DNA of 64,000 nt from Haloferax sulfurifontis ATCC BAA-897 (GTDB lineage Archaea > Halobacteriota > Halobacteria > Halobacteriales > Haloferacaceae): positions 1 to 64,000 of the forward strand of contig NZ_AOLM01000029.1 in assembly GCF_000337835.1 (NCBI RefSeq), in the 5' to 3' direction. Below the pieces are notes generated by a model. That model did not search any database. It was not told the DNA's origin and was given only the letters and a program-made list of their open reading frames with translations. Positions 7,521-25,839 of the stretch are shown in pieces. Made by a program: the position numbers and the translations under genes. Position 1 is the stretch's first letter. Every line of letters starts with the position of its first letter.

Positions 7521-7691
7521 ATTGTGTTCATTAACTTTGTTCACTAAACTCTAGGTTGCTCCGCAGACCGTTGCAATCATGCATGAGCATAGTCTCACCC
7601 AGCCATGGCGATCATTGAGTTCGTTCATCTAATGTGTTCAGTCTATTTGTTCATTGTGTACATTCATTGATTAACTCAATGAATGAATGTA
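7521..7691. repeat. Iteron-like repeats upstream of parA (candidate centromere/operator)
   Basis: An AT-rich region holds repeated TGTTCA(T/C/G)T-type words at 7525, 7539, 7635 and 7648. It also has an imperfect inverted repeat, TACATTCATTGA (7659-7670) against TCAATGAATGAATGTA (7676-7691). Direct and inverted repeats just upstream of parA are the usual position of partition sites (parS/parC) and of autoregulatory operators. The role is inferred. Confidence 0.5.
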
Positions 7692-7754
7692 TCTGTTGAA
7701 CGCAATGAGTGCATGCACAGAAGATTCAAGGTGATGGTTCATCATGAACACAGT

Positions 7755-8630
7755 ATGCTCACATATTCGACCTACAGCGAGGCAGGCGGGGTCGGGAAGA
7801 CGACCACCGCAGCAAACTTGGCGGTTGCGCACGCTCGGGCAGGGTTGAAACCGCTCGTCGTTCCGCTTGACCCGCAAGACGGCGATCTCTCACGTCTCTT
7901 CGGTGTTGACGACCAGCGAACGGATTCAGTCGATAACATTGTCCGGCATATGATTCGACGCCCCAACGGCGACTTTGAAGACCTCATTCGAACCGTCGAG
8001 GGTGTCGACATCGTTCCGGAACACAATATGCTCTCAGATCTGGCTGATTTTCTACAGCGAGAGAAAGATCAAGCCGAAGCCATGGGGGAAGCATTCGGCA
8101 TGCACGCACAGCTACTCCGGGTGCTCCGTGAGGCCGGCGTCCCTGACAAGTACGATGTCTTGATCTGCGACCCACCGGCAACTGAAGGCCCACATCTCTA
8201 CAACGCGATCCATGCGACGCGGTCGCTAGTCATCCCTGTCGAGCCAAGCGCAAAAGGCCGTGCAGCAGTTGAGGGACTTGAAGCCCTCGTCGCCGGGTTT
8301 GAAGACCAACTCGAGATTGACGTTGGTGTGCTTGCCGCCGTGCCAACCGGATTCAAAAACACACGTGATCAACGGCAGGTATTAGCTGAAATCGACTATC
8401 CGATCCCAGAGATCATCAGCGAGCGTGCCTCCCTGATGGAAGGCTGTTGGATGGAACAGTGTTCAGCGTTCAAATACGTTCGTGAACACCGGTCTCGTCG
8501 CCGTGACTACGAAATTGAGACGCTTGCGCAGTTCGACCGCATCGCGAGGCATCTCGAAGAACAGGTTGGTATCGAAGCGCCAAACCCACCGGAACCCGGT
8601 GACGTCGACCACGAGGTGGTGACGGTATGA
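7755..8630 (+). CDS. parA: ParA-family partition ATPase
   Basis: This roughly 291-aa deviant-Walker ATPase segregates plasmid copies by forming ATP-dependent gradients on DNA. SEAGGVGKTTTAANLAVAHA at residues 8-27 is the deviant Walker A motif with the signature lysine. VPLDPQDGDLSRLFG follows as the switch region, and YDVLICDPPA is Walker B. The ATG at 7755 puts the beta strand directly before Walker A, as in haloarchaeal relatives; an earlier in-frame ATG at 7683 would add 24 unlikely residues. The stop overlaps the next gene by 4 bp. The AT-rich repeat region upstream is the likely partition site. Confidence 0.93.
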   Translation: MLTYSTYSEAGGVGKTTTAANLAVAHARAGLKPLVVPLDPQDGDLSRLFGVDDQRTDSVDNIVRHMIRRPNGDFEDLIRTVEGVDIVPEHNMLSDLADFLQREKDQAEAMGEAFGMHAQLLRVLREAGVPDKYDVLICDPPATEGPHLYNAIHATRSLVIPVEPSAKGRAAVEGLEALVAGFEDQLEIDVGVLAAVPTGFKNTRDQRQVLAEIDYPIPEIISERASLMEGCWMEQCSAFKYVREHRSRRRDYEIETLAQFDRIARHLEEQVGIEAPNPPEPGDVDHEVVTV

Positions 8631-9037
8631 CTGGGATGAAGAAAGGAGCTGGTGAAGATCCGTTCGCGGATGATTCGTCAACTGAATCAGCGACTGCTAC
8701 GGAGCCCCAAGGAGAGACGTCTAAGCCTGAGCAGGCTGAAGAAACGGATTCGAAACAAGCTGACGATACAGAGACACAACAGACCCGCCAACAGATCCAG
8801 ATTCCATACAAATTCCGCCGCGACGGCGTCCAAGACGGTCGTGATCGGGTTCCGTTGTTCTTGCAGAAGGAGACAAAAGTCGCAGAGCGGGACGCCCTGC
8901 ATGAGTTCGAGGATCGGTTCGAGGAAAACGTCTCACTCACTGACCTCCGTGAAGCGCTCATGAAGGTTGGACTGCAACACCTCGATGAAGCAGAAGAGTG
9001 CCTCGAGGAGTGGGGCTACGGGATGACGTTCGACTAG
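8627..9037 (+). CDS. ParA-associated partner protein
   Basis: This 136-aa protein is translationally coupled to parA (ATGA). The first 60 residues are a disordered, Glu/Ser/Thr-rich acidic tail. The conserved part begins IQIPYKFRRDGVQDGRD and includes VPLFLQKET, DLREALMKVGLQHLDEAEE and EEWGYG. This domain regularly follows ParA in haloarchaeal plasmids and is presumed to act as the ParB-like centromere-binding or adaptor component. No classical ParB or ribbon-helix-helix motif is obvious. Confidence 0.75.
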   Translation: MTGMKKGAGEDPFADDSSTESATATEPQGETSKPEQAEETDSKQADDTETQQTRQQIQIPYKFRRDGVQDGRDRVPLFLQKETKVAERDALHEFEDRFEENVSLTDLREALMKVGLQHLDEAEECLEEWGYGMTFD

Positions 9038-9346
9038 CACAGGAGCACTCACAGACAGTCAGACACCGAGACCCGGCCAGCCTACTAGTTTGACCACAGT
9101 CCGAACCCTGACCGATTGAGAATTTTCCGATACTAAAGAGACAAGCGTCGCTTCTTGGTGGCTCGTTCTAAGGACCAAGATTTTCGGAGTTAGAATAAAT
9201 ATGATCGTATAGAATAATTTTTGTTTAGCTCATTGTCCCTCAGAGACAATGAGGATTAGCAGAATATCGACCAGTTATCGAGCTTTGGCGATGAATTGCA
9301 TTTCGCTATATCCAATTCCACGGGTAGAAGTTCCCAGAGTTTCGGA
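9038..9346. other. Non-coding region left of the inverted repeat
   Basis: This is an AT-rich spacer of about 300 bp with no supported gene. An internal GTCCCTCAGAGACAATGAG-type short palindrome near 9234 could form a hairpin, possibly terminating parA transcription. Confidence 0.35.
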
Positions 9347-9434
9347 GTTTGGGTTCTGTTGCGTGTCTTATTTTCACGCCAACTGAATTTGATTAGACTC
9401 TTACCTTGCGGTTTTCGAATTTAGCACGGTGAGA
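9347..9434 (+). repeat. 88-bp inverted repeat, left copy
   Basis: This sequence is identical to the reverse complement of 13229-13316, from GTTTGGGTTCTGTTG to AGCACGGTGAGA. A weaker match continues inward for about 45 bp (to near 9475) and about 8 bp outward. The two copies bound a segment of about 4 kb carrying three genes and a SRAP relict, as expected of transposon ends or two MITEs in opposite orientation. Confidence 0.85.
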
Positions 9435-9658
9435 AAGCTTCGAAAGGTTTTCTGGATGACATAAAATCGAAATCGATAGACCACTCCTATTTCACCACTA
9501 TTGTGCTTGAATAGAAGGCACGCAACATTTCCATCCTCCGAGGTTGTGCAAGACGGCTATAAGTAATCCCAGCGCTGGAGCGTCTGCCTCAACAGATTCT
9601 AACGGAGAATAGAGTATCTGTTTTCCCAAACCTTCAACATACGGCAAGCAGTCCACAG

Positions 9659-9666
9659 TATATAAG
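9659..9666 (+). promoter_or_regulatory. TATA-like box before the membrane-protein pair
   Basis: TATATAAG lies 57-64 nt upstream of the in-frame ATG at 9723 and only a few nt before the GTG at 9669. If it is the true promoter, the functional start could be the ATG at 9723, not the GTG. Confidence 0.35.
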
Positions 9667-9668
9667 AA

Positions 9669-10133
9669 GTGCCAGAGGACAATCCAGAACTTCTCGAAAT
9701 AGCCCAGGGCGTAGCCGACCGGATGACCCTAACAGACATAGGAGTCGCACTTCTCCTCACACTGGCTGGCACCACCTACGCACTATACAAGGGATTCGAC
9801 CTCTGGTGGATCTACCCCTTAGTACTGGGAGGCTTCGTTTTCGTCTCCGAAGCCGTACAATGGTACTACTTCGATTATCCCCAAGAACGACTGCGGGAAA
9901 AAGCAGAGAAGCTTGCACAGGGTGAAGACGTAGACCCCCAGCTCGATATGGGTCCAGGATTCACCGATCCGTTCATCCTAACACTGCTGGGAACCATCAT
10001 CACTTGGGGACTCATTAGCATCCACATTATCACGCCTGAAGTAGGCAGATACCCTGGAACCTACATTTTCCTCGGAGGCACGATGATACTGCTCATCGCC
10101 ATCTCTTCTATTCAAGAGAACAGGAAGACGTGA
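9669..10133 (+). CDS. Small membrane protein of the inverted-repeat island
   Basis: This protein of up to 154 aa is not recognised. It has four likely transmembrane segments, in two pairs: around IGVALLLTLAGTTYALY and WWIYPLVLGGFVFVSEAV in the first half, and FILTLLGTIITWGLISIHII and YIFLGGTMILLIAISSI in the second. A charged cytoplasmic loop (ERLREKAEKLAQGEDVD) separates the pairs. The start is GTG (9669) or ATG (9723). It lies 28 bp before the next membrane-protein gene, so the two are probably co-transcribed. No catalytic motif is visible. Confidence 0.65.
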   Translation: MPEDNPELLEIAQGVADRMTLTDIGVALLLTLAGTTYALYKGFDLWWIYPLVLGGFVFVSEAVQWYYFDYPQERLREKAEKLAQGEDVDPQLDMGPGFTDPFILTLLGTIITWGLISIHIITPEVGRYPGTYIFLGGTMILLIAISSIQENRKT

Positions 10134-10161
10134 CTGAATCAAAAATACCCTCCGAGCCAGT

Positions 10162-11019
10162 ATGGAGAAAATAGACCCTGCTACTATCTTCGGGAGCGAG
10201 CGCAGCGACCAAGTGGACTTCGAGATTGCCTTTACTGCGCTTGTCGTCACAGTTGTTCTCAGCGTTCCCGTCAACGACTTCGGGTACACCCTACTGAAGG
10301 CCTTAGTAATCTCCTTGAGCGGGCTTACCTTGCTTAGGAAGATGGCGGTCTCAAACCAGCATGCATCAGCTAGACCGGTGCTTCGATGGTCGATGCCGTT
10401 CATCGAAGCGATCACCCTCGTAGCAACGGTGCACATCTTCCTGGAGGCAGGTGCAGCTCTTTCCGACCAATTCCCTATGCCGATCTCTCCAGTGTTAATT
10501 GCTTCACCGCTAATTCCGGTGTTCGTTCTCGGAGTCTTCGGTTTCCACGAGAAGGTAACCAAGGACGCAAGCCTCTACATCGCTCTCCTAAGTCACAATA
10601 CCTCGAAACGTGCAGAAGAAGCAGAAATATTCGGCTTGGCTGATGGCCTAGATGACTGGTTTCTGGACCAAGCCGGTCTCTTTGTAACCTTCTCGAACAG
10701 CGAGAATATCCCTTCAGAACTGGCATGGCTGGAACACCGTGTTGATTCGAAGGCTTCACCTCCGCTTCTCAAACTATTCGCGGTAGGTGCATTTGGCTAC
10801 GCTTTGATCTGGCTCTTGATCACCTGGGTCTTCGGATCTACCGCTCTCAACTTGATCTTCCTTTTCTTCATCTTCTTCATCAAGTATCCAATCCAGTTCT
10901 GGTACTCCCGGTTCGGATTAGCCCGATTCACTTCAGAGAGATCTGGGTGGGTTGACGTACTAATCATTATCCTCGGGTTACTCGCTACTAACCTGACTAT
11001 CCTGACCAGATACGGTTGA
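10162..11019 (+). CDS. Polytopic membrane protein of the inverted-repeat island
   Basis: This 285-aa protein is not recognised. There are probably six or seven transmembrane segments. Four are before residue 140 (for example FTALVVTVVLSVPV and VLIASPLIPVFVLGVFGF), and a group of strongly hydrophobic segments follows residue 195 (LIWLLITWVFGS, LNLIFLFFIFFIKYPIQF, VLIIILGLLATNL). A soluble loop of about 60 residues lies between. It converges with the nuclease-like gene, with 12 bp between stop codons. The three genes may form one functional set in which the membrane proteins act with the nuclease-like protein. Confidence 0.65.
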   Translation: MEKIDPATIFGSERSDQVDFEIAFTALVVTVVLSVPVNDFGYTLLKALVISLSGLTLLRKMAVSNQHASARPVLRWSMPFIEAITLVATVHIFLEAGAALSDQFPMPISPVLIASPLIPVFVLGVFGFHEKVTKDASLYIALLSHNTSKRAEEAEIFGLADGLDDWFLDQAGLFVTFSNSENIPSELAWLEHRVDSKASPPLLKLFAVGAFGYALIWLLITWVFGSTALNLIFLFFIFFIKYPIQFWYSRFGLARFTSERSGWVDVLIIILGLLATNLTILTRYG

Positions 11020-11031
11020 GCGGCGACCCAG

Positions 11032-12645
11032 TTACTCTCCGTCTTCTAATTCTTCGTCACCGGTAGTAAGCTCAGAAGTAAATACCTTGTCTCCAGCATT
11101 GAAGGCCTCACCCAGACGCTTCAACAAGTTCTCGTCTATATCAGGGTTGAAGCAGAATACCTGCCCTTCGATATACGGCGAGTTCAGACTTCCTGAAAGC
11201 TCGTAATTGACCAAGAGATCGAGATTCTCGATGTTGTTACCGCTAAACTGTTCTGTATCTTGGATAGCGACCGGTTTACCACGCACTAAAGTCAGACTGT
11301 CCTTCCCTTCCTCGAGAACCATGATATGGCCGCCTTCAGCATACTCCCGGACATGGTGATTGTCGATAGCTGAAAACTCGTTCTTTAACACGAGCATTGT
11401 CAAGTCGTCCGGTTCCTCCTCTTTGATATCTGTTATCTGGCCTCTGGTTTTCTCAGTTACCTTCGTTCGGACATTGCTTGCTATTCCTCCGGTGGCTGAA
11501 AAGACGCTGCTAAGCCGTGCTTCTGTGGTTCGCCGGGTATGGGTGATTTCCACCCAGATAGTGTCATCGGTGAGATCGACTTTCAGATCCGGCTTTCTTC
11601 CAGCAACTGATTCCTCAATAGCCACGTCAGCCTCAACGAACTCTCGTCGAAGTGCGTTCGTCGTCTGAATCTCAGTCACCGTGTCCTCGTACTGCTGTCG
11701 GTTGAGAAGATCGTCTCCAAGGGATTCTGTGGGGTCGTGGTTGTCGTAGAGCGACTCACAGCAGTGATCCAAGTATGATAAGAAGTGGATTGATTCCAGA
11801 TCGTTCCGTGTCTTGATATCGAAATCTTGGTCGGCTCTTGAAAACCGGTATACACCTTCCCGGGGGATATCGTGTGAGAGGAAGCGGGCAAGACTGTGAG
11901 TTCCCTGTGACTGGAGATCACCGATCCAGTCCTCGCTCAATACATCGATCAGGAAGGGATAGTCATCGGCATTACTCCGGACTTGGTCGTAATCAATTCC
12001 AAGACCGTATGAATCGAGATTGGAGGGCAGGTTCTGAAGATCCTTGAGAATGTTATCAGCCCGAAGCAAGTCGTTGTCCTTTGAGACAGATTTCAGTGCC
12101 TGCTTTGGGTCAATGTCTTCGCTCTCTGCGATATCCTTCAGGGTCGATAGAAGTTCGCTGTCCCGTCCGTCCAAGTCTTCACCTGTTTTCCTTGACTGGT
12201 AGTATGCCTCGAGAGTCCGTTCTACAGCTTTCTCAAAGACCAGCGGCGAATCACTGTACCACTTCTGTAGTTCTTGTTGAAGCAAATCTGTGTGATTCCA
12301 GTAGACGTGAGGAATGTAGCTGGAAACATAGCCAGTGGAGTATTCCTCCTCGTCAAGCCACTTGTTCATATACTGTTGTGCAAGGTCACGGTCGGGTTTT
12401 CCGGCAGCTCGTAGAGCAGACTCTAAATCCCTCACCAGTATCTTCCGGTTCCGGATTAAGTCATCCAATCGTTCGAATGCCAATTGGGGTTCCTTTTCTC
12501 CGCACCGTTCGATAATTTTGGTGTAGAAGGGGCGATCGATCGTCCCGCTGTCGACAATATTCCTCAGTTGCTGCAGCTTCTCTTTGCAGCTTTCGTCGCT
12601 TCCGAATACATCATAGATATCAGCATCAGAGTCCATGATGCTCAT
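11032..12645 (-). CDS. Large putative PD-(D/E)xK nuclease of the inverted-repeat island
   Basis: This 537-aa soluble, acidic protein is not recognised as a whole. The N-terminal 300 residues are helical and repeat-like. Around residues 350-375, GRKPDLKVDLTDDTIWVEITHTRR has the layout of a PD-(D/E)xK core: PD, about 11 residues, then E-x-T in place of E-x-K. A following region (GQITDIKEEEPDDLTMLVLKN) fits the rest of the fold. The lysine-to-threonine change needs checking for activity. It is transcribed towards the two membrane-protein genes. Codon use looks less GC-biased than in the conjugation operon, consistent with transfer. Confidence 0.6.
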   Translation of the reverse strand: MSIMDSDADIYDVFGSDESCKEKLQQLRNIVDSGTIDRPFYTKIIERCGEKEPQLAFERLDDLIRNRKILVRDLESALRAAGKPDRDLAQQYMNKWLDEEEYSTGYVSSYIPHVYWNHTDLLQQELQKWYSDSPLVFEKAVERTLEAYYQSRKTGEDLDGRDSELLSTLKDIAESEDIDPKQALKSVSKDNDLLRADNILKDLQNLPSNLDSYGLGIDYDQVRSNADDYPFLIDVLSEDWIGDLQSQGTHSLARFLSHDIPREGVYRFSRADQDFDIKTRNDLESIHFLSYLDHCCESLYDNHDPTESLGDDLLNRQQYEDTVTEIQTTNALRREFVEADVAIEESVAGRKPDLKVDLTDDTIWVEITHTRRTTEARLSSVFSATGGIASNVRTKVTEKTRGQITDIKEEEPDDLTMLVLKNEFSAIDNHHVREYAEGGHIMVLEEGKDSLTLVRGKPVAIQDTEQFSGNNIENLDLLVNYELSGSLNSPYIEGQVFCFNPDIDENLLKRLGEAFNAGDKVFTSELTTGDEELEDGE

Positions 12646-12884
12646 AGAGTATGTTTCTGGGTTGATGATTGTTCTGCCGTATCTAAGAGTGCAACCCCGA
12701 AGTTCAACCTCCCAAGATAGTCAGCCCAACGTCCGGTATAACCTCCTTGAGGCCGAGGGGACGAGTCGGGGTCAAGAGTACTCGCTCGTCGATTCGACAG
12801 CGGCATCGCCGATGCAGTGACTGTGACGCCGTCAGCTATCCCGAACCGAACTCGCTGAGACCCGATTGCTCGTGGTCAAGCGGC

Positions 12885-13145
12885 TCGATAATCTGGAGAT
12901 CGTCTCGTCGTCGCTCTCCCAGACGTCCTAGAGCCCGGACATCGCGAAGGAAGGACCGTCTTCGCTAAATCCGGTAGGACTGTTTCCACCCGCCGTTCGA
13001 CGATTTCCACTCGTAGAACCCTGATGAGGGGACGAGGCAGGGACGTGATTCCCACGCTCGCTTGAAGACGCGTTTCTCGTCGGCAGTCTTGGAGCGAGCG
13101 TTGATGATGCCTTCCCCGGGTTCGTCCGCCCAGAACGGAATCTGC
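12885..13145 (-). pseudogene. SRAP (YedK/HMCES-type) pseudogene fragment
   Basis: Minus-strand reading gives IPFWADEPGEGIINARSKT, then EKRVFKRAWESRPCLVPSSG and FYEWKSSNGGWKQSYRI, ending in a stop. After a frame change it gives DGPSFAMSGL, a stop and DVWESDDE. These match the central SRAP blocks (NAR-x-E-T, RCLVP-x-x-GFYEW, FAGLW). The N-terminus with the catalytic Cys2 is missing, and stops interrupt the rest. SRAP proteins crosslink to abasic sites in ssDNA and are often carried by mobile elements. Confidence 0.75.
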
Positions 13146-13228
13146 CTTATAGTATTGTGAATCTGTTGAAACTCTATCGCAGTCTGCTGATTCTGATTTT
13201 ATGCCACCCAGTAACGCTTTTCGAGTTC

Positions 13229-13316
13229 TCTCACCGTGCTAAATTCGAAAACCGCAAGGTAAGAGTCTAATCAAATTCAGTTGGCGTGAAAATAAGACAC
13301 GCAACAGAACCCAAAC
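13229..13316 (-). repeat. 88-bp inverted repeat, right copy
   Basis: This is the reverse complement of 9347-9434, identical over 88 bp, with a degenerate extension inward (about 13190-13228). On the minus strand the extension keeps an open frame to a stop in both copies (VRELEKRYWVA here, VRKLRKVFWMT at 9430-9463). The repeat may therefore derive from the end of a coding sequence such as a transposase. Confidence 0.85.
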
Positions 13317-13539
13317 GCCGAAACTGTGGAAGTTGAGACTATACCGGTTTAGCAGGCCTATGATGCGTGGTTCTCGTCGCATCAGTGATCGAGAGTGGAT
13401 CCAGATTGGCCCTCAATCGTCCGTTCCTGTCTATATGCTCTCACTCAGCCATCATAACGAGTGAAGTTTCTCGCCATATACATTGAGACAGTGGTCTGGA
13501 AAAGCTGTAACGCATAGAAGTGTGAGTACCCGAAAGTTG

Positions 13540-13890
13540 CTACCGAAGTTCGTTGACAAGAGCAGCGATTGCGTTATCGACAATACCATCCGCCAGACGG
13601 CCCTGCCAGAAGTCGATATCCTCGTGGTCGATTGATTGGACGCCCCACGGGACGATCCGACTCTCATCAGGCGTCCCACCATGAAGCCAACTCTCCCCAG
13701 GGATGTCGATAAGGCCGTCCATCCAGGATTTTGATGTCAACGTTAGCGCGATATACTGGTCGCCGTGAAACGGCCGTCCCTCGTGATTCGAGAGGATAAG
13801 CCAAGGCCGAGCGTCCTTGTCGCCTTTGAATGGATCATCACCGTAGACGACGTCGCCCCGCTCGAAGATCGGTGTCTCTTCGTCGGTCAC
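13540..13890 (-). CDS. PemK/MazF-type toxin
   Basis: This 116-aa protein resembles the MazF/PemK/Kid fold of ribosome-independent mRNA interferases: a start like FERGDVVYGDDPFKGDKD, then RPWLILSN, and YIALTLTSK. The usual R/P-rich RPxLVLS strand and the conserved Thr/Ser region are recognisable, and length is typical. The gene is immediately downstream of, and overlaps by 4 bp, an HTH gene that is probably its antitoxin. The RNA target cannot be predicted. Related haloarchaeal proteins are annotated as PemK-like growth inhibitors. Confidence 0.75.
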   Translation of the reverse strand: MTDEETPIFERGDVVYGDDPFKGDKDARPWLILSNHEGRPFHGDQYIALTLTSKSWMDGLIDIPGESWLHGGTPDESRIVPWGVQSIDHEDIDFWQGRLADGIVDNAIAALVNELR

Positions 13891-14258
13891 TGTTCGTTCT
13901 CGACGCTTGGGTGGGATTGCTGCGGTGCATGCTCACGCCAGGATTCCTTGTCCTCGGCACCCAGTTGGTCGTTGAACAGAGCCGTTGCTCGTTCGTACCC
14001 ACTGTATCCGTTGAGGCGCTCAGCGTCGTCAGTCACCGCCCAGTACGTCGCCTTATGTTCGACCAAACTACGGTCCTTTAACCGTGAGAGCGCGGTGCTG
14101 ACTGCACCCTCGTCAACGCCGATCTGAGAGGCGATTTCTCGAGCCTTGAACGCATGATTATCGTTAGCGGCGAGAAATCCGAGGACCTGATCGGGTACAG
14201 AGAGTTCTTCGAGCTCGTCCTCGCTCGTGTTCTCGAAGGTGTCTCGGTCGATAGACAT
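13887..14258 (-). CDS. MarR-like winged-helix antitoxin partner
   Basis: This 123-aa protein has a winged helix at about residues 22-75 (VLGFLAANDNHAFKAREIASQI, then GVDEGAVSTALSRLKDRSLVE). The C-terminal tail beyond residue 85 is likely to be disordered and toxin-neutralising. It precedes and overlaps the PemK-like toxin gene. I infer that it represses its own operon. A TTTACA-like TATA element near 14286-14291 sits about 28 nt upstream of the start. Confidence 0.75.
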   Translation of the reverse strand: MSIDRDTFENTSEDELEELSVPDQVLGFLAANDNHAFKAREIASQIGVDEGAVSTALSRLKDRSLVEHKATYWAVTDDAERLNGYSGYERATALFNDQLGAEDKESWREHAPQQSHPSVENEQ

Positions 14259-16454: not shown

Positions 16455-17711
16455 CTAGTCTAACGTACCGTTCTTTTTCGCGAGTTCACGGATGCCTTCT
16501 AGATCACCAAACTCACTCTCCAGCGCGTCCAACGCCGACGACAACGAGACGTCCAAATCGTACTCGTTGTAGTTACCTCGACCGCCACTCGAGTCAACCA
16601 ACTGCAACACACCATGGAGGTTCAGATCCGACAAGTGGTCGTGTACGCGCCGACGCTTCAACGGCTCTTGCCCATTCTTCCGCGCAACCTTCTGGTACCG
16701 CCGATAGATTGCCTTTGTCCGTTCGGGCGTTTCTCCTCGAGCCGCTAGCTGACACACCGTCAATAACACATGCTGTCCATGTTGTGTCAACGAGTGCATA
16801 CCTTCAACGACTTGCTGGCGCTGAATCTGGAATTCTCCCTCGCGGACGTGTTCCTCTGTTACAAACGCATCACCACCAGCCCGCGCTTCTGACTCTGCAA
16901 TATCGACTGCCTTCCGCAGCAGTCGAAGTGCCTGCCGGGCCGATCCAGAGTCCCGTGCTGAAAACGCGGCACACAACGGAATCACATCGTCTTCCAACAC
17001 ATCATCATACAACGCAATCTCCGCTCGCTCACGGAGGATGTTTTGGAGTTCGCCAGCATCGTACGGCGGAAACAAGATCTCTTCCTCACAAAGTGTATCT
17101 TTGACTTTCGGGGACAGGTTATCGCGAAATTTGAAGTCGTTACTAATTCCGATGACGCCCAACTTCACGTCCAAGTCTAATTGTGAGCGTGCCCGAGGGA
17201 GTTCGTACAGAATATCATCATCTGATCCGATATTGTCGATCTCGTCGAGGACGACCAATACTGTCCCTCCGATATCTTCTAGGTCAGCATAGAGCTCACG
17301 AAACACGCGCTTTTGTTGATAGCCAGTCTCACTAATTGGCGCTCGTGAAGACGACACATTTGTTAGTGGGTGATTTGGCTTTCGAATTTCGTTCACGAGG
17401 TTCACCGCAACCTGATACGACGTGTTGCAGCCAGTACAGTTCAGTTCGATAATATTCACGTCAACGTCGTCGTACTGGTCAGCCGATTCCTGAAGCTCTT
17501 TGAGTAGGTCGTGCGTGGCCGCAGTCTTCCCGACACCTGTGACCCCATACAGAAACACGTTGTTCGGCTGCCATCCTTGGATTACCGGCCGGAGAGCTGC
17601 CGCGTATTCGTCGAGTTCTGCGTCTCGTTCCTCAAGAGTCTCAGGCTGGTAGTCGTCTCGCAACACGTCGTTGTCTCGAATAATGAATGACTCCCGAGTG
17701 AACCGGCCCAT
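16455..17711 (-). CDS. orc1/cdc6: Orc1/Cdc6 replication initiator
   Basis: This 418-aa AAA+ origin-recognition protein binds its cognate repeats and loads the MCM helicase. NNVFLYGVTGVGKTAATHDLL is Walker A, and VLVVLDEIDNIGSDDDILYEL is Walker B with sensor. SARDSGSARQALRLLRKAVDIAE is the sensor 2 region. A C-terminal winged helix around RRVHDHLSDLNLHGVLQLVDSSG recognises DNA. The ATG at 17711 is chosen because MGRFTRESFIIRD is the usual start and a TTTTAT box lies 26-31 nt upstream at 17737-17742 (minus strand). The frame is open to 17828 but only through repeat DNA. Origin repeats on both sides make this the replication module. Confidence 0.95.
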   Translation of the reverse strand: MGRFTRESFIIRDNDVLRDDYQPETLEERDAELDEYAAALRPVIQGWQPNNVFLYGVTGVGKTAATHDLLKELQESADQYDDVDVNIIELNCTGCNTSYQVAVNLVNEIRKPNHPLTNVSSSRAPISETGYQQKRVFRELYADLEDIGGTVLVVLDEIDNIGSDDDILYELPRARSQLDLDVKLGVIGISNDFKFRDNLSPKVKDTLCEEEILFPPYDAGELQNILRERAEIALYDDVLEDDVIPLCAAFSARDSGSARQALRLLRKAVDIAESEARAGGDAFVTEEHVREGEFQIQRQQVVEGMHSLTQHGQHVLLTVCQLAARGETPERTKAIYRRYQKVARKNGQEPLKRRRVHDHLSDLNLHGVLQLVDSSGGRGNYNEYDLDVSLSSALDALESEFGDLEGIRELAKKNGTLD

Positions 17712-17744
17712 AGATTGGACGATGTTGCTATATGTGATAAAACC

Positions 17745-18215
17745 ACGGGTGCCAGTATGACCAATAACCACACCCCTGTTGCCAGTAACGCCAATATATC
17801 GGGTGTTTATAAAAGACACTCTCTCCACTATTGCCAGTATTCCCTCGTAGATGAGGACTGGAGTTCAAGACGAGGTGACTAACAGGGTAATCGAACTATA
17901 TATACAGTTGTACTTTACTAATTCTTTTCCAGTACGGGTTTGGTTTTACCACTATTGATATAAATCTATCGTATAGATACTGTTGGCGGGAGTACACCCA
18001 GGTTCGTTCGAGTGCTTTTACTGGCAAAAGTGGTGTGTGTGTGTTATTTAAACGAGGCGAATACTGGCAGTACTGGCAACGGGGGTTCTCTGGGAACGAA
18101 CTTCCCCCACGAATCTACCCCCCAATCAGAAGTCCCCACGTTTGCACCAGCTTTACTGGCAATAGTGGACTGGTTATTGGCAGTACTGGCAACACCGGTA
18201 CCTCAATCAGCTAAC
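17745..18215. repeat. Origin repeats upstream of orc1/cdc6, with AT-rich segment
   Basis: Many copies of TACTGGCAA or its complement occur, for example near 17751, 17782, 17830, 18019, 18060, 18070, 18155 and 18185. The copies near 18070 and 18190 carry the CGGGGGT or CACCGG extension. An AT-rich stretch at about 17890-17990, with runs such as ACTATATATACAG, is a plausible DNA-unwinding element. Together with the repeats at 16277-16430 this makes a two-sided origin. Confidence 0.75.
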
Positions 18216-21072: not shown

Positions 21073-22809
21073 ATGGATCACCGAGTGCCCTCCGTACTGG
21101 TAGCCGCCCTGCTCGTGTTGAGTTCCATTATCGGCCTCGCCACGGCACAGCCCCCGAGACCAGGGACTGAGACAAACGGCCTCACGGAAAACGAGTCGGC
21201 AACGCTCTGGTCTCGTGATAGCGACCGCTACGTCAGCCAACAAGACTACCAGCAGCAGTACGGCGACGAGCGAACGGCACTCCACCAACTCGCCAACGGA
21301 ACTGACATCACGTTCACGCGGCCGCCGGGGACGGCCGCGACGTGGACGCGCAACGACTTCGCGGATCTCGACGCCGGCGGGCCCGACACGTCGACGTACC
21401 CGCCCCATGCGTCACTCGAAGATGGGACGTTCATCGACGATGCGCACGCGACAATCTTCGCGGTCACGCCATCGACGCGTGGCCATCTCGACGCAGGTGA
21501 GACGCCGCTCTATATCGCCCCCAATGGGACGGTTCGCGGCCTCGTCGACTACCGTGTTCGTGTTCCAACCGGGAACGAAACGGGCAATCGGACCGTCGAT
21601 TGGACGCTTGTCTCTCACGAGATTGAGAACACCCGTCTGAAAATCGATGGTATCCCGGTTGCCTCGACTGCAGGCACTCACACGCCAGAATTACAGTATC
21701 ACACCACTCACTCGTGGAGCGCGAACCTCACGCTCGAAGCGAACATCTCAGTCCGGCTCAAGAAGACCGTCGAGACAACGGTTGGTGGCGAATCTAAGAC
21801 GACAGTCAACTACCGGACGGAAACACGAACCGTCTCGGATACACTCGATGCCGAGATTTACGACCTCGCAGCGTACCCCTACTACGCGCAGTATCCGAAC
21901 GGGGAGACTGGCGTCGCGATTTTCCAGTCCCGGCCGTGGCAGGGCTATACGCTCACCGATGATGCGTCCGCTCGCGTGCGTGGTGTGTGGCGGTTCTACA
22001 CGGCTCGCGACACGAACTGGGACAGACTCGTTACGTCCACCAGCACGTCGACGACCACGGCACAGTCGGATGCGATTCCCGTCCGAGTTCACGCGTACCC
22101 CTCGCAGATCGGGCCGCGAGCGGAGCCCGTTCGCGATGGGCCGGATATCATCGATACGTGGGGGGCTGACCGGGCGTCGCCTCGCCGGACAATTGGCGAG
22201 AACGTGACTGTCGAGGTCGTCAACGAGTCGTACACGCCGACCTATGGTCTGGCCATCCGTGCGAAGACCGTCGACCGGGAGGCGCTTCGAGTCGGCGGGA
22301 TCGTTCGCGGGGTGAATGCCACAATTGTCGACCCCCAAGTCGGGTCAGAGCGACAGCTTCGAGAGAGTAACCTCTCTGTCGAGCTCGTTTCGCAGACGAC
22401 GTCGAACGCGACCCTCCAAGTCGAGTTGCGCGATAACCAGACGGGCGCGCCAATCGCATCGAATGGGAGTGACCGACAGTACCCGATTGGCGGCTCGGCA
22501 CACAGCGGCTACATCACCGTGGGTGACCAGCGCGTTGAGACCAACGAGAGTGGCGTCGCAATCGTCACGCTGGACGAGCCGGGGATCTACACGGTCCGCT
22601 ACCACCCCGGCACGTGGCTTGGCCACGACCCCGCGTATGTGGGCGATACGGCCTCGGTTCGCTGGCATCCACTCGGGACTCTCGAGGGGTGGGTTGCGTT
22701 CGTATTCGAGGTCGGCTGGCAGGCGATTCCGTTCGTCGTGACGTTCTACGCCGGTCGCCGACTTCTCCGCATGTTTGGACCGACAGAGAGCTACTACCGA
22801 AACCAATGA
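21073..22809 (+). CDS. Large exported surface glycoprotein, membrane-anchored
   Basis: This 578-aa protein has a signal peptide (VLVAALLVLSSIIGLATAQ, about residues 8-26), a long extracellular beta-rich region rich in N-x-(S/T) sequons, and one C-terminal transmembrane segment (WVAFVFEVGWQAIPFVVTFYAG). A short cytoplasmic tail ends it. It is not recognised by family. In the operon it may form the surface-exposed part of the mating or secretion apparatus. The stop overlaps the lipoprotein start (ATGA), so translation is coupled. Confidence 0.7.
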   Translation: MDHRVPSVLVAALLVLSSIIGLATAQPPRPGTETNGLTENESATLWSRDSDRYVSQQDYQQQYGDERTALHQLANGTDITFTRPPGTAATWTRNDFADLDAGGPDTSTYPPHASLEDGTFIDDAHATIFAVTPSTRGHLDAGETPLYIAPNGTVRGLVDYRVRVPTGNETGNRTVDWTLVSHEIENTRLKIDGIPVASTAGTHTPELQYHTTHSWSANLTLEANISVRLKKTVETTVGGESKTTVNYRTETRTVSDTLDAEIYDLAAYPYYAQYPNGETGVAIFQSRPWQGYTLTDDASARVRGVWRFYTARDTNWDRLVTSTSTSTTTAQSDAIPVRVHAYPSQIGPRAEPVRDGPDIIDTWGADRASPRRTIGENVTVEVVNESYTPTYGLAIRAKTVDREALRVGGIVRGVNATIVDPQVGSERQLRESNLSVELVSQTTSNATLQVELRDNQTGAPIASNGSDRQYPIGGSAHSGYITVGDQRVETNESGVAIVTLDEPGIYTVRYHPGTWLGHDPAYVGDTASVRWHPLGTLEGWVAFVFEVGWQAIPFVVTFYAGRRLLRMFGPTESYYRNQ

Positions 22810-23651
22810 TTCCAACCGATTCACCGATTGGTAGACGTACCGTCCTTCGAACACTCGGCGGGGCCGCACTCGCCAGCGTTGCCGGCTGTCTCGATAGTAG
22901 CCGTAACTCGGAACCGACGACGTCCGACCAGACGTCGGCGACGACCGAGCGTGCTGGCCCGCTTTCACTCATCGCTGTCGAGGGCCAAGCCGTCGTCGTT
23001 GAGGTTGATACTGACGCACCCGTCGAACAGGTAAACCTCATTCAGCCGAATGGGGAACTGTTCGGGAAGCGTGGGCTTGCCGCCGGCGCACGACAGGTTT
23101 CGTTCGAAATCGGGACTGCCTACGAGCCCGGTGAGTACCGTGTCGTCGCACTAGATGGTGACGAAACTGTTGCCGAGGGTTCTCTCGAGATTAGCCCTCA
23201 GATTGAGATTCAGGACGTTGGGCTGTTTCGAAATGTACCGGATAAGCCGTGGGACGAGGTCTACGGTGAAAGTCCGACTGATGCAAAAAAGAACGGTGAG
23301 GCATTCGTCACGGTCAAAAACAGAGGGAGCGGACCGAATGCAATCGTTGAACTCCACTTTGCTGGTGACGTTCCTAATCCAATCGAAAACCCACGTGGGA
23401 ACGGAATCTATGAAGAAAGTAGCGTCGTCGTCCCTGCAGGAGAAACAGTTGATATTTTCAGTAGCTCATTCCCATTCGGTTCAGCCATTGGAGAGGATGG
23501 GATGGGCTGTTCGACTGATGGTAATCGTGGCCAGTTTACTGTTGTCGTAGACACTCGAGTCGCAGCTCGGCAGGTCACAAAAGAGTACAACGTGGCATAT
23601 ACTGACGCCGAAGAGATGCAAAACTGCGAGATTACGATTAGCGAGGCATAG
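22806..23651 (+). CDS. Tat-exported lipoprotein
   Basis: This 281-aa protein has a twin-arginine signal, GRRTVLRTLGGAALASVAGC, whose cysteine (about residue 27) is in a haloarchaeal lipobox and would be lipidated. A Ser/Thr-rich linker and Ig-like beta-rich extracellular domains follow. The ATG at 22806 overlaps the upstream stop; longer in-frame versions start inside the preceding gene and are rejected. It is probably a structural component of the cell-surface complex. From about 23150 the codon use is noticeably more AT-rich than in the preceding gene. Confidence 0.8.
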   Translation: MIPTDSPIGRRTVLRTLGGAALASVAGCLDSSRNSEPTTSDQTSATTERAGPLSLIAVEGQAVVVEVDTDAPVEQVNLIQPNGELFGKRGLAAGARQVSFEIGTAYEPGEYRVVALDGDETVAEGSLEISPQIEIQDVGLFRNVPDKPWDEVYGESPTDAKKNGEAFVTVKNRGSGPNAIVELHFAGDVPNPIENPRGNGIYEESSVVVPAGETVDIFSSSFPFGSAIGEDGMGCSTDGNRGQFTVVVDTRVAARQVTKEYNVAYTDAEEMQNCEITISEA

Positions 23652-23653
23652 CG

Positions 23654-24715
23654 ATGGTTGATCTCATTGACGTCGTATTAGAGGGTTTCAAAGACATTGT
23701 TGGTTGGATTATTGGTCTCTTTATGGACGCCCTGTCAACGGGGTACAACACTCTTTCCGAGGAGATGTTTGGGACCCCGACACCCGAGACAGATGGTGTA
23801 TTCATTTTTGGAGAACCAGCCAGTGAGCCGTGGTTGACTATTCGAGATGCACTCGTTGGTGGTGAGATAATGCTCATTGCATTGTTATTGCTCGTCGTCT
23901 GTGTTCAAGCACGGCACGCTATCCGAATATTCAATGTTGGTAGTGCCTACGAGGCCAAAAAAACGAAGAAAACTGCATGGGTTGGTGCATCTTTGATTGT
24001 TGTCTGGTATTGGGTTGGTGTCCTTTCGCTTTACCTTATTGACGGGTTTGCTCTCGCCTTACTCCCAACTATGGATTCGATTCGGAATGCTATGTTAGGT
24101 TTCCTTGGTGTAACGATATCTAACCCTGCTCTCTCTCTGGTGTTTGCGCTAATTGGTGGGCTCTCTATGTGGGCTCTAGAAGCACTATTCTACATCCGGA
24201 AGATCCTGGTCTATGTCTATCTCTACGGGATGCCGGTTGCAATCGCACTCGGATACGGAAATGTGCCTGTCGTCTCTGACGTTGCAATGGGCTTCTGCAA
24301 GAGGTTCGTCCCTCTCGCTGTCCTCCCTTTGCCTGCTGCAGTCGTTTTCAAGGGTTATGACCTGATCTACGGTGGCGGAACAATGGTCCCACAGACCGAC
24401 TTCCTGAAGTTCTTAGTTGCTACCTCGCTCCCGCTGGTTGCTCTCTACATTACATGGAAGACGTTCACGTACGCGACGCCGCTCACCGCGAAGGTGATCG
24501 GCGGTGCAACGCGAGGCGCAGCCCTCGTCGGCGGCGTCGCAGCCGGCGCGTATGTCGGCGGCGCTGGCGTTGCAACGACCGCCGCCCGCTGGGGGCCGAA
24601 AGCCGCCGCCGGCCAAGCACTCGCCCAGCGAGCAGCCGCACAGCGTGACTCGACTGATGACAGCGACGGACTGCCGTCGTACCGGCGGACCGAAAACGAG
24701 CCCCGCACCCGCTAA
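23654..24715 (+). CDS. Polytopic channel protein (VirB6/TrbL-like)
   Basis: This 353-aa protein has an amphipathic N-terminus and about six or seven transmembrane segments between residues 70 and 275, including MLIALLLLVVCVQA, WVGASLIVVWYWVGVLSLYL and VAIALGYG. A glycine/alanine-rich, positively charged tail follows. The layout (large loop, a central membrane block, Ala/Gly-rich tail) is that of VirB6/TrbL inner-membrane channel proteins. It lies directly before the VirB4-related genes, with 2-bp spacing on both sides. Assignment is by topology and context. Confidence 0.6.
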   Translation: MVDLIDVVLEGFKDIVGWIIGLFMDALSTGYNTLSEEMFGTPTPETDGVFIFGEPASEPWLTIRDALVGGEIMLIALLLLVVCVQARHAIRIFNVGSAYEAKKTKKTAWVGASLIVVWYWVGVLSLYLIDGFALALLPTMDSIRNAMLGFLGVTISNPALSLVFALIGGLSMWALEALFYIRKILVYVYLYGMPVAIALGYGNVPVVSDVAMGFCKRFVPLAVLPLPAAVVFKGYDLIYGGGTMVPQTDFLKFLVATSLPLVALYITWKTFTYATPLTAKVIGGATRGAALVGGVAAGAYVGGAGVATTAARWGPKAAAGQALAQRAAAQRDSTDDSDGLPSYRRTENEPRTR

Positions 24716-24717
24716 CC

Positions 24718-25839
24718 ATGTCGACAGACCAAGACACAGCCGCACGGCGCATCATGGACCAGTTCGGCGAAGCGAGTCGCATTCCCTACCTCAACATCGA
24801 AGAGGGCGACGTCGGTGTTCTTATCGCCCTCCCAATCTGTGGGTTGCTCCTCGCCGGCCTCACCGGCGTTGAATCACTCGCTGTCCCGTTTATCGCAAGC
24901 GGCCTCGGTATTGGCGCGGCCATCGTCTACGTCGCGCCTGACCATCTGAACGCGTGGACCTGGACGAAAGACGTCTATCGCTACGCCAAACGGCCCCGGA
25001 TTACGCTGAGTGCGCCAGAGCACCCTGACGACCAGACGAACGAAACCGTGCGCAACGAGGGTGGACTCGCGAACTACACGCCGTTTACTCCCGACGAGCG
25101 AACCCAAGACCTCACGAATATCGAGCGAGCGTGGCCCGGCGCCGGCGCGATTCAACGGACTGACGGCGCGATGGAGGCGTTCATCGAGATCGATCCGGGG
25201 AACATGGACTTCGCGATGGCCGACGACTGGGCGCAACTCCAGGACGCAGGCGCCGAGTTCGCCAACAAAGAACTCGACTCGAAGCTCAAATTCCACGCGA
25301 CAACCCGGTCATTCCCGGTCGAACAGATCACCGAGACAATCGAGGAGCGACTCACCGACGAAGACGTCACACAGAACCCGATCTTCCGGGAACTCCTCGA
25401 AGAGTATCGGGAGACGCGGCCCAAAGAGATGCGCGACCGCGGCATTCAGCAGGTTCGATACTACATCGGCGTGGAAGTCTCGCCACTCGAAGTCTACGAC
25501 CGATACCGTGACGAGGGAACGCCGGCTGAAAAGCTGACGCAGTTCCCCGTGATTGGCATCCTGTTCAACCCGTTTGTCACGCGGCGCGCGGACCTCTCTG
25601 ACGTGGAACGCCGCGCCCAGATGTTCGAGAAACTGGACGACCGTATTGCAGATGTCCGTTCCGAGTTCATCCAGCAGGCGTCCGGCTGGTCTGCCCACCG
25701 ACTCAGCACGGTCGAGTTGTTCGTCCTGAACATGGACTTCTGGAACGGCGAAGAACACGATTTCGAGACCGAAGCAGACGTAATTCGTGAACAGCCAATT
25801 CTCGGCCGGTCACGCCGCGAGGAGGCGTTCGATGCGTAA
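24718..25839 (+). CDS. Membrane-anchored VirB3/VirB4-N-like protein
   Basis: This 373-aa protein has two N-terminal transmembrane segments (VLIALPICGLLLAGLTGVE and VPFIASGLGIGAAIVYVAP, about residues 32-75), a PrgI/VirB3-like arrangement. A soluble alpha/beta domain follows, with IERAWPGAGAIQRTDGAMEAFIEI near its start and FVTRRADLSDVERRAQMF later. The second part resembles the N-terminal domain of VirB4-type ATPases, whose ATPase is encoded by the next gene. The last 8 bp overlap that gene, which suggests a VirB3-VirB4 module split or rearranged between two polypeptides. Confidence 0.6.
   Translation: MSTDQDTAARRIMDQFGEASRIPYLNIEEGDVGVLIALPICGLLLAGLTGVESLAVPFIASGLGIGAAIVYVAPDHLNAWTWTKDVYRYAKRPRITLSAPEHPDDQTNETVRNEGGLANYTPFTPDERTQDLTNIERAWPGAGAIQRTDGAMEAFIEIDPGNMDFAMADDWAQLQDAGAEFANKELDSKLKFHATTRSFPVEQITETIEERLTDEDVTQNPIFRELLEEYRETRPKEMRDRGIQQVRYYIGVEVSPLEVYDRYRDEGTPAEKLTQFPVIGILFNPFVTRRADLSDVERRAQMFEKLDDRIADVRSEFIQQASGWSAHRLSTVELFVLNMDFWNGEEHDFETEADVIREQPILGRSRREEAFDA

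Follow-up and report, generated by a model that had tools for sequence, protein, structure and literature searches.

The locus studied here raises two questions: whether a 4-kb segment bounded by perfect inverted repeats next to parA moves as one unit, and what the genes between the repeats do. The window analysed comprises the first 64 kb of the 103-kb contig NZ_AOLM01000029.1 of Haloferax sulfurifontis ATCC BAA-897 (assembly GCF_000337835.1). The annotated plasmids closest to this replicon are those of Haloferax, and we therefore regard it as a plasmid, or plasmid-like replicon, of Haloferax. Among its genes are parA with a parB-like partner (7683-9037), one for Cdc6/Orc (16455-17828) and one for a TrbL-like conjugation protein (23654-24715). 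An earlier note on this DNA had placed the segment in a mobile setting beside parA, and parA, TrbL and the MITEs described below bear this out. The gene order of the TrbL-containing cluster (21073-25839) is kept in another genome, G016, where a relative of the nuclease candidate gene discussed below is some 5 kb away. Separately, positions 13540-14258 encode a winged-helix protein and a PemK/MazF-like protein, a pair that is frequent on haloarchaeal plasmids and likely represents a toxin-antitoxin or addiction unit.

The inverted repeats and their origin

The inverted repeat is exact over 88 bp, with its left arm at 9347-9434 on the plus strand and its right arm at 13229-13316 on the minus strand. 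At lower identity it reaches 148 bp (9334-9481 and 13182-13329, 89% complementary), in agreement with the earlier description of 88 identical base pairs followed by degenerate inward extensions. A chance origin of the 88-bp repeat is not an option. Only two copies of the sequence were found in the organism's own genome, and a search elsewhere, as had been suggested, matched the MITE family to which it belongs in 19 of 148 genomes of the same taxonomic family, with copies common in the genus. Placed side by side, the copies begin with CA(C/G)AGTTTCGGAG and end with CTCCGAGGTTGTG, at a length of about 214 bp. Those in other genomes, many of them in relatives, measure 200-217 bp and share the same ends (CACAGTTTCGGAG/CTCCGAGGTTGTG). 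Target duplications of 6-7 bp, read by eye, accompany seven of them (L008, L009, L012, L013, L016, L019 and L027).

In the window, the left arm lies in a full-length MITE of about 214 bp (9335-9548, plus strand; terminal repeats CAGAGTTTCGGAG ... CTCCGAGGTTGTG), and the right arm in a truncated, inverted copy that lacks the inner end (13179-13329, minus strand). The element is non-coding, shorter than about 500 bp, ends in terminal inverted repeats, occurs in several genomic copies and produces target-site duplications; the window repeats are thus an ordinary MITE of the Haloferax type. Haloarchaeal MITEs have been described as short elements with terminal inverted repeats and target duplications that insert beside other repeats (PMC3119063), and the present MITE family resembles them in these respects. 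The left copy lacks a duplication of its own (AAGTTCC versus CAAGACG). The view that the 88-bp repeats delimit an island as a mobile unit is not upheld: the arms are two copies of a widespread MITE, one of them truncated.

Both copies adjoin further repeats. Directly before the left MITE lies a 110-bp repeat (9225-9334, plus strand) bearing a hairpin with a 9-bp stem (CTCATTGTC/GACAATGAG), which also precedes a MITE end at a second place in the same genome (C8:38165-38290) and in the genomes G025 and G029, and which stands without a MITE in G030. It is probably a PATE-like element used as a MITE target; in Haloquadratum, PATE-like elements have been reported in that role (PMC3119063). Directly outside the right MITE lies a remnant, the end, of another dispersed repeat (13329-13372, plus strand; GAAGTTGAGACTAYACCGG..., beginning with GAAGTT), which also occurs elsewhere in the same genome (C27:25473) and in G033 and G035.

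The two arms are mosaics. Left and right are 98.9% alike over the outer 88 alignment columns and 67.3% alike over the next 49, and this pattern is reversed when the left arm is compared with L026, a MITE copy in G036 (75.0% over the outer 88 columns and 83.7% over the inner 49), so that the inner part of the left arm resembles L026 more than it does its partner. Given near-identity that gives way so sharply, the arms look homogenised rather than like the ends of a fresh transposon. This mosaic is most simply explained by gene conversion or by a hybrid MITE. We consider it probable that two MITEs inserted independently, that gene conversion between them then rendered the arms identical and that the genes between them arrived separately. 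The frequency of MITE copies in the genus and the presence here of a complete and a truncated copy are consistent with this, although the inner stretch covers no more than 49 columns and a hybrid MITE made before transposition would leave the same appearance. The earlier note had itself named two unrelated MITE insertions as the reading that would undo its own; separate insertion of two copies of one MITE family is what we prefer.

A different origin, in which a transposase acting in trans used the inverted MITE ends and moved the 4-kb segment as a composite transposon, appears unlikely. The arms form an exact inverted match of 88 bp, and on this account, itself doubtful, those 88 bp would be the functional ends. 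GAAGTT stands outside both ends (9327-9332 and 13329-13334), its length fits that of the target duplications (6-7 bp) seen at single MITEs, and the left MITE is not itself flanked by a duplication. This possible 6-bp duplication keeps the reading weakly alive. We do not rely on it, however, because the right GAAGTT is part of the older dispersed repeat, which elsewhere stands without a MITE, and the left one is separated from the MITE end by an extra CC. The truncation of the right arm and the abrupt end of the 88-bp identity, with an inner left arm nearer to L026, also speak against it. A search with the end pattern in 29 relatives for a partner transposon recovered MITE-like copies, with no obvious transposase between paired ends. 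Nor was a clean empty site found: G030 keeps the left flank up to window position 9319 without the MITE, and its sequence past that point differs. Gene conversion between separately inserted copies thus remains our preferred account of the arms, and it is compatible with the explanation of the genes in terms of defence that is set out below.

A conserved cassette of three genes

The gene content between the repeats is as first described: two membrane-protein genes, a convergent gene for a 537-aa protein and a SRAP relict. The first three form a conserved cassette at 9612-12676, the limits of which are given by DNA homology to contig 8 of G249 (locus L115), a genome of another haloarchaeal family (f7). 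On that plasmid-like contig, the window shares 88.4% DNA identity over 3071 bp with a copy that has the same gene order and orientation, namely a gene for a four-TM protein followed by one for a seven-TM protein and, facing them, the nuclease candidate gene. No MITE is present there. The homology stops short of both MITEs, by 63 bp on the left and by 502 bp on the right, so the cassette is smaller than the repeat-bounded island. The same gene block therefore occurs without MITEs in another family, which counts against both a repeat-bounded mobile unit and the composite transposon. The cassette, and not the pair of repeats, is the real unit of interest; it is genuine, conserved and mobile.

The remainder of the island (12677-13178) lies outside the cassette and holds the SRAP pseudogene (12839-13141, minus strand). 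Aligned to the intact SRAP-like ORFs of two relatives, this relict is 42-43% identical and contains a stop and a broken frame.

Within the cassette, M154 (9669-10133, plus strand) and M285 (10162-11019, plus strand) are named here for their lengths of 154 and 285 aa, and N537 (11032-12645, minus strand) for its 537 aa. The dN/dS values against relatives are 0.21-0.28 for M154, 0.09-0.14 for M285 and 0.16-0.17 for N537 (0.09-0.28 overall), and all three genes are hence under purifying selection and kept functional. Protein relatives were sought in 391 genomes of the class. Relatives of N537 that are full-length or nearly so (E < 1e-100) occur in 11 genomes, one of which is its own; relatives of M285 occur in 34 and of M154 in 3. 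Most relatives of N537 occur without M154 or M285, and most relatives of M285 without N537; all three genes stand together in only two of the sampled genomes, and these two copies resemble each other closely, at 88% DNA identity. The two halves also travel alone at the DNA level. G420 has only the N537 gene (91.5% identity over window 11015-12691, with about 50 bp or less of flank on each side), and G229 has only M154-M285 (71% over 9656-11019). As these borders of homology fall at gene ends, the cassette is made up of two modules that can be exchanged. No relative turned up when GTDB contigs were scanned with a single sequence, and profiles of N537 and M285 recovered none among IMG/VR viral contigs at the sensitivity of that search.

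Predicted properties of the encoded proteins

The earlier suggestion that these are not housekeeping families agrees with scans of Pfam, PADLOC, NCBIfam and PHROGs, which returned no housekeeping match. The only significant family-scan match of the three proteins is a short one between M154 and phrog_20218 (function not known; E 4.6e-4).

N537 is predicted to comprise a helical N-terminal domain and a C-terminal nuclease domain of the PD-(D/E)xK type. The structure model (mean pLDDT 76.9) places helices at residues 319-336 and 391-410 and strands at 341-343, 354-357, 362-368 and 415-421, giving the alpha-beta-beta-beta-alpha-beta order that a PD-(D/E)xK core requires. This core (residues 319-421; window 11383-11691, minus strand) holds the residues E325, E344, D353, E366, K399 and Q403, all in or adjoining the expected core elements and invariant; D353, E366 and K399, for example, are unchanged throughout the alignment of 12 sequences. 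The lysine of the ExK motif is a threonine in the window protein and in most of the 12 sequences, and a lysine in L044 and L035.

Comparison of residues 296-520 by VIA-align listed mostly PD-(D/E)xK proteins, including BsmI (Z 6.8, rmsd 3.2, 140 aligned), XisH (Z 6.4, rmsd 3.2, 119 aligned), McrC (Z 6.0, rmsd 4.2, 144 aligned) and YaeQ (Z 5.9, rmsd 4.4, 131 aligned), all four of which we take to be members of that superfamily. All fold matches are middling (Z < 8), and the best Foldseek E value was 0.16, with none below 0.001. A sequence search of the PDB gave chance matches only, and N537 matched no Pfam or PDB family by sequence. The assignment to the PD-(D/E)xK type is nonetheless likely, because element order, conserved residues and the consistency of the fold matches concur where no single score is decisive, and the nuclease-like core proposed earlier is to that extent corroborated by the model and by conservation. 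N537 would share with the superfamily its core topology and the E/D/E positions, and differ from it by the threonine in ExK and by the long helical N-terminal domain, for which VIA-align gave helical repeats as the best matches. Hydropathy indicates no TM segment. The C-terminal motif FDLR...D[IV]WIEVxKPD also occurs in a second family of about 300 aa (L101 1186-2085, L102, L104 and L105), which is unnamed and has no Pfam match.

M154 and M285 are predicted from hydropathy to be multi-pass membrane proteins. For M154, four TM segments are marked in the G249 copy and two exceed the threshold in the window copy. M285 has seven predicted hydrophobic segments and a conserved VDFEI motif near its N terminus, and belongs to an unnamed haloarchaeal family. 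Its structure model is all helical (pLDDT 78), and a fold search gave no meaningful match, only resemblance at the level of a helical bundle (best Z 5.9).

Neighbourhoods of relatives and a possible role in defence

Relatives of N537 lie on plasmids or islands. On a Halobacterium plasmid, one has a type I-B CRISPR locus nearby, and at four loci (the window, L115, L116 and L035) a parA/parB-like pair is no more than about 6 kb away. Such proximity to parA, together with the relative near the same TrbL cluster in G016 and with TrbL and parA on the window replicon itself, would suit a role in plasmid maintenance or entry exclusion, with M154 and M285 as surface-exclusion proteins and N537 degrading competing plasmids or serving as an addiction nuclease. 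We consider this improbable, as the cassette has no antitoxin-like small gene and many relatives of M285 are found on large contigs, some exceeding 2 Mb and presumably chromosomal, and several M285 relatives lie beside restriction genes.

Relatives of M285 head a type I restriction-modification operon (L051), adjoin Hma genes (L050), HNH nucleases (L125 and L127), an N6/N4 methylase (L129), or DUF3644 together with a DUF2254-like membrane protein (L134), or lie near a 5mC methylase cluster (L126). An integrase is near at four other loci (L047 and L131-L133), and several of the 15 M285 loci, for example L124, L128 and L130, have no recognised defence neighbour. A PADLOC scan of the 58 flanking ORFs matched 201 families, with E values down to 1e-175, against 4 weaker matches for 53 control ORFs 5-9 kb away at the same loci, counts that overstate the contrast because PADLOC families are redundant and the numbers of matched proteins differ less. 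All strong matches fall in the flanking set. The association with defence that the earlier note had proposed thus gains independent evidence from the neighbourhoods of M285 relatives, while the function of the cassette itself is still read from sequence.

We therefore propose, with the balance of evidence tilting somewhat in its favour, that this horizontally moving cassette most likely serves anti-virus or anti-plasmid defence, with a membrane complex and N537 cutting DNA. The M154-M285 operon, convergent with N537, would be carried as plasmid cargo downstream of the parA/parB-like pair, and the MITE copies bracketing it would be mostly incidental. M154 and M285 may assemble within the cell membrane and, as a complex, sense or mark DNA on its way in, although the membrane-sensing step taken alone is more tentative. 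N537 could then be recruited or activated at the membrane through its helical domain and cut DNA with its PD-(D/E)xK domain; local attack on entering DNA would be the most economical model. Physical interaction of the proteins, DNA cleavage, membrane sensing and protection from viruses are what we infer. The membrane topology and the nuclease-type core are themselves predictions, backed by conservation. Against the proposal stand the lack of any match to a known defence family, the middling fold scores, the threonine in ExK, the M285 loci with no recognised defence neighbour and the rarity of all three genes together, which leaves room for cooperation that is not obligate.

Membrane-plus-nuclease logic exists in bacterial defence, in Zorya, Kiwa and SNIPE (PMC12904381). 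Like Zorya, with its ZorAB membrane motor and ZorC/ZorD nuclease, the cassette encodes membrane proteins together with a putative DNA-degrading effector; like Kiwa (the membrane sensor KwaA with KwaB), it pairs a multi-TM protein with a presumptive DNA-acting cytoplasmic one; and, as in the membrane-bound nuclease SNIPE, nuclease action would be tied to the membrane (PMC12904381). The differences are as clear. No PADLOC family for Zorya, Kiwa or any other defence system matched the three proteins up to E 10. In place of Zorya's components the cassette has four-TM and seven-TM proteins with an effector of the PD-(D/E)xK type, and unlike in SNIPE, its membrane part and its nuclease candidate are separate genes, the latter without a TM segment. 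A nuclease-type core sets N537 apart from KwaB, which does not cut DNA. As archaeal envelopes lack bacterial peptidoglycan, sensing of the Zorya type could not apply as such. With no Zorya, Kiwa or SNIPE component recognisable, the likeness is one of functional analogy and not of membership. The cassette also holds no methylase of the kind that a restriction-modification system would have beside its nuclease. Much less has been mapped of archaeal than of bacterial defence, and the cassette, which is without named relatives, is plausibly a new candidate system.

The genes might also not form one system, N537 being a stand-alone restriction-like nuclease and M154-M285 having a membrane function outside defence, as chance neighbours that travel together. 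The occurrence of each half alone at high identity and the varying partners of M285 fit this, but purifying selection on all three genes, an identical arrangement in two families and the recurrent association of M285 relatives with other nucleases or with methylases make it rather unlikely. A joint defence function is still the reading we favour. More speculatively, and with less confidence than for membrane sensing, M285 could be the core of a haloarchaeal family, so far unrecognised, of membrane adaptors linking various nucleases and restriction systems (N537, HNH, type I restriction-modification, Hma) to the membrane. If so, DNA would be attacked at its point of entry, and the window cassette would be the most compact form. 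At 3 kb and three genes the cassette would be easy to test, as Haloferax volcanii serves as a laboratory model in this genus and viruses are available; should it work, it would represent membrane-localised DNA defence in archaea. The M285 family may also serve as a marker for finding more defence loci in haloarchaea. Finally, a DUF2254-like membrane protein adjoins both the cassette in G249 (L115 6841-8283) and the M285 relative in G291 (L134 7953-9479), and is a possible fourth partner of the cassette.
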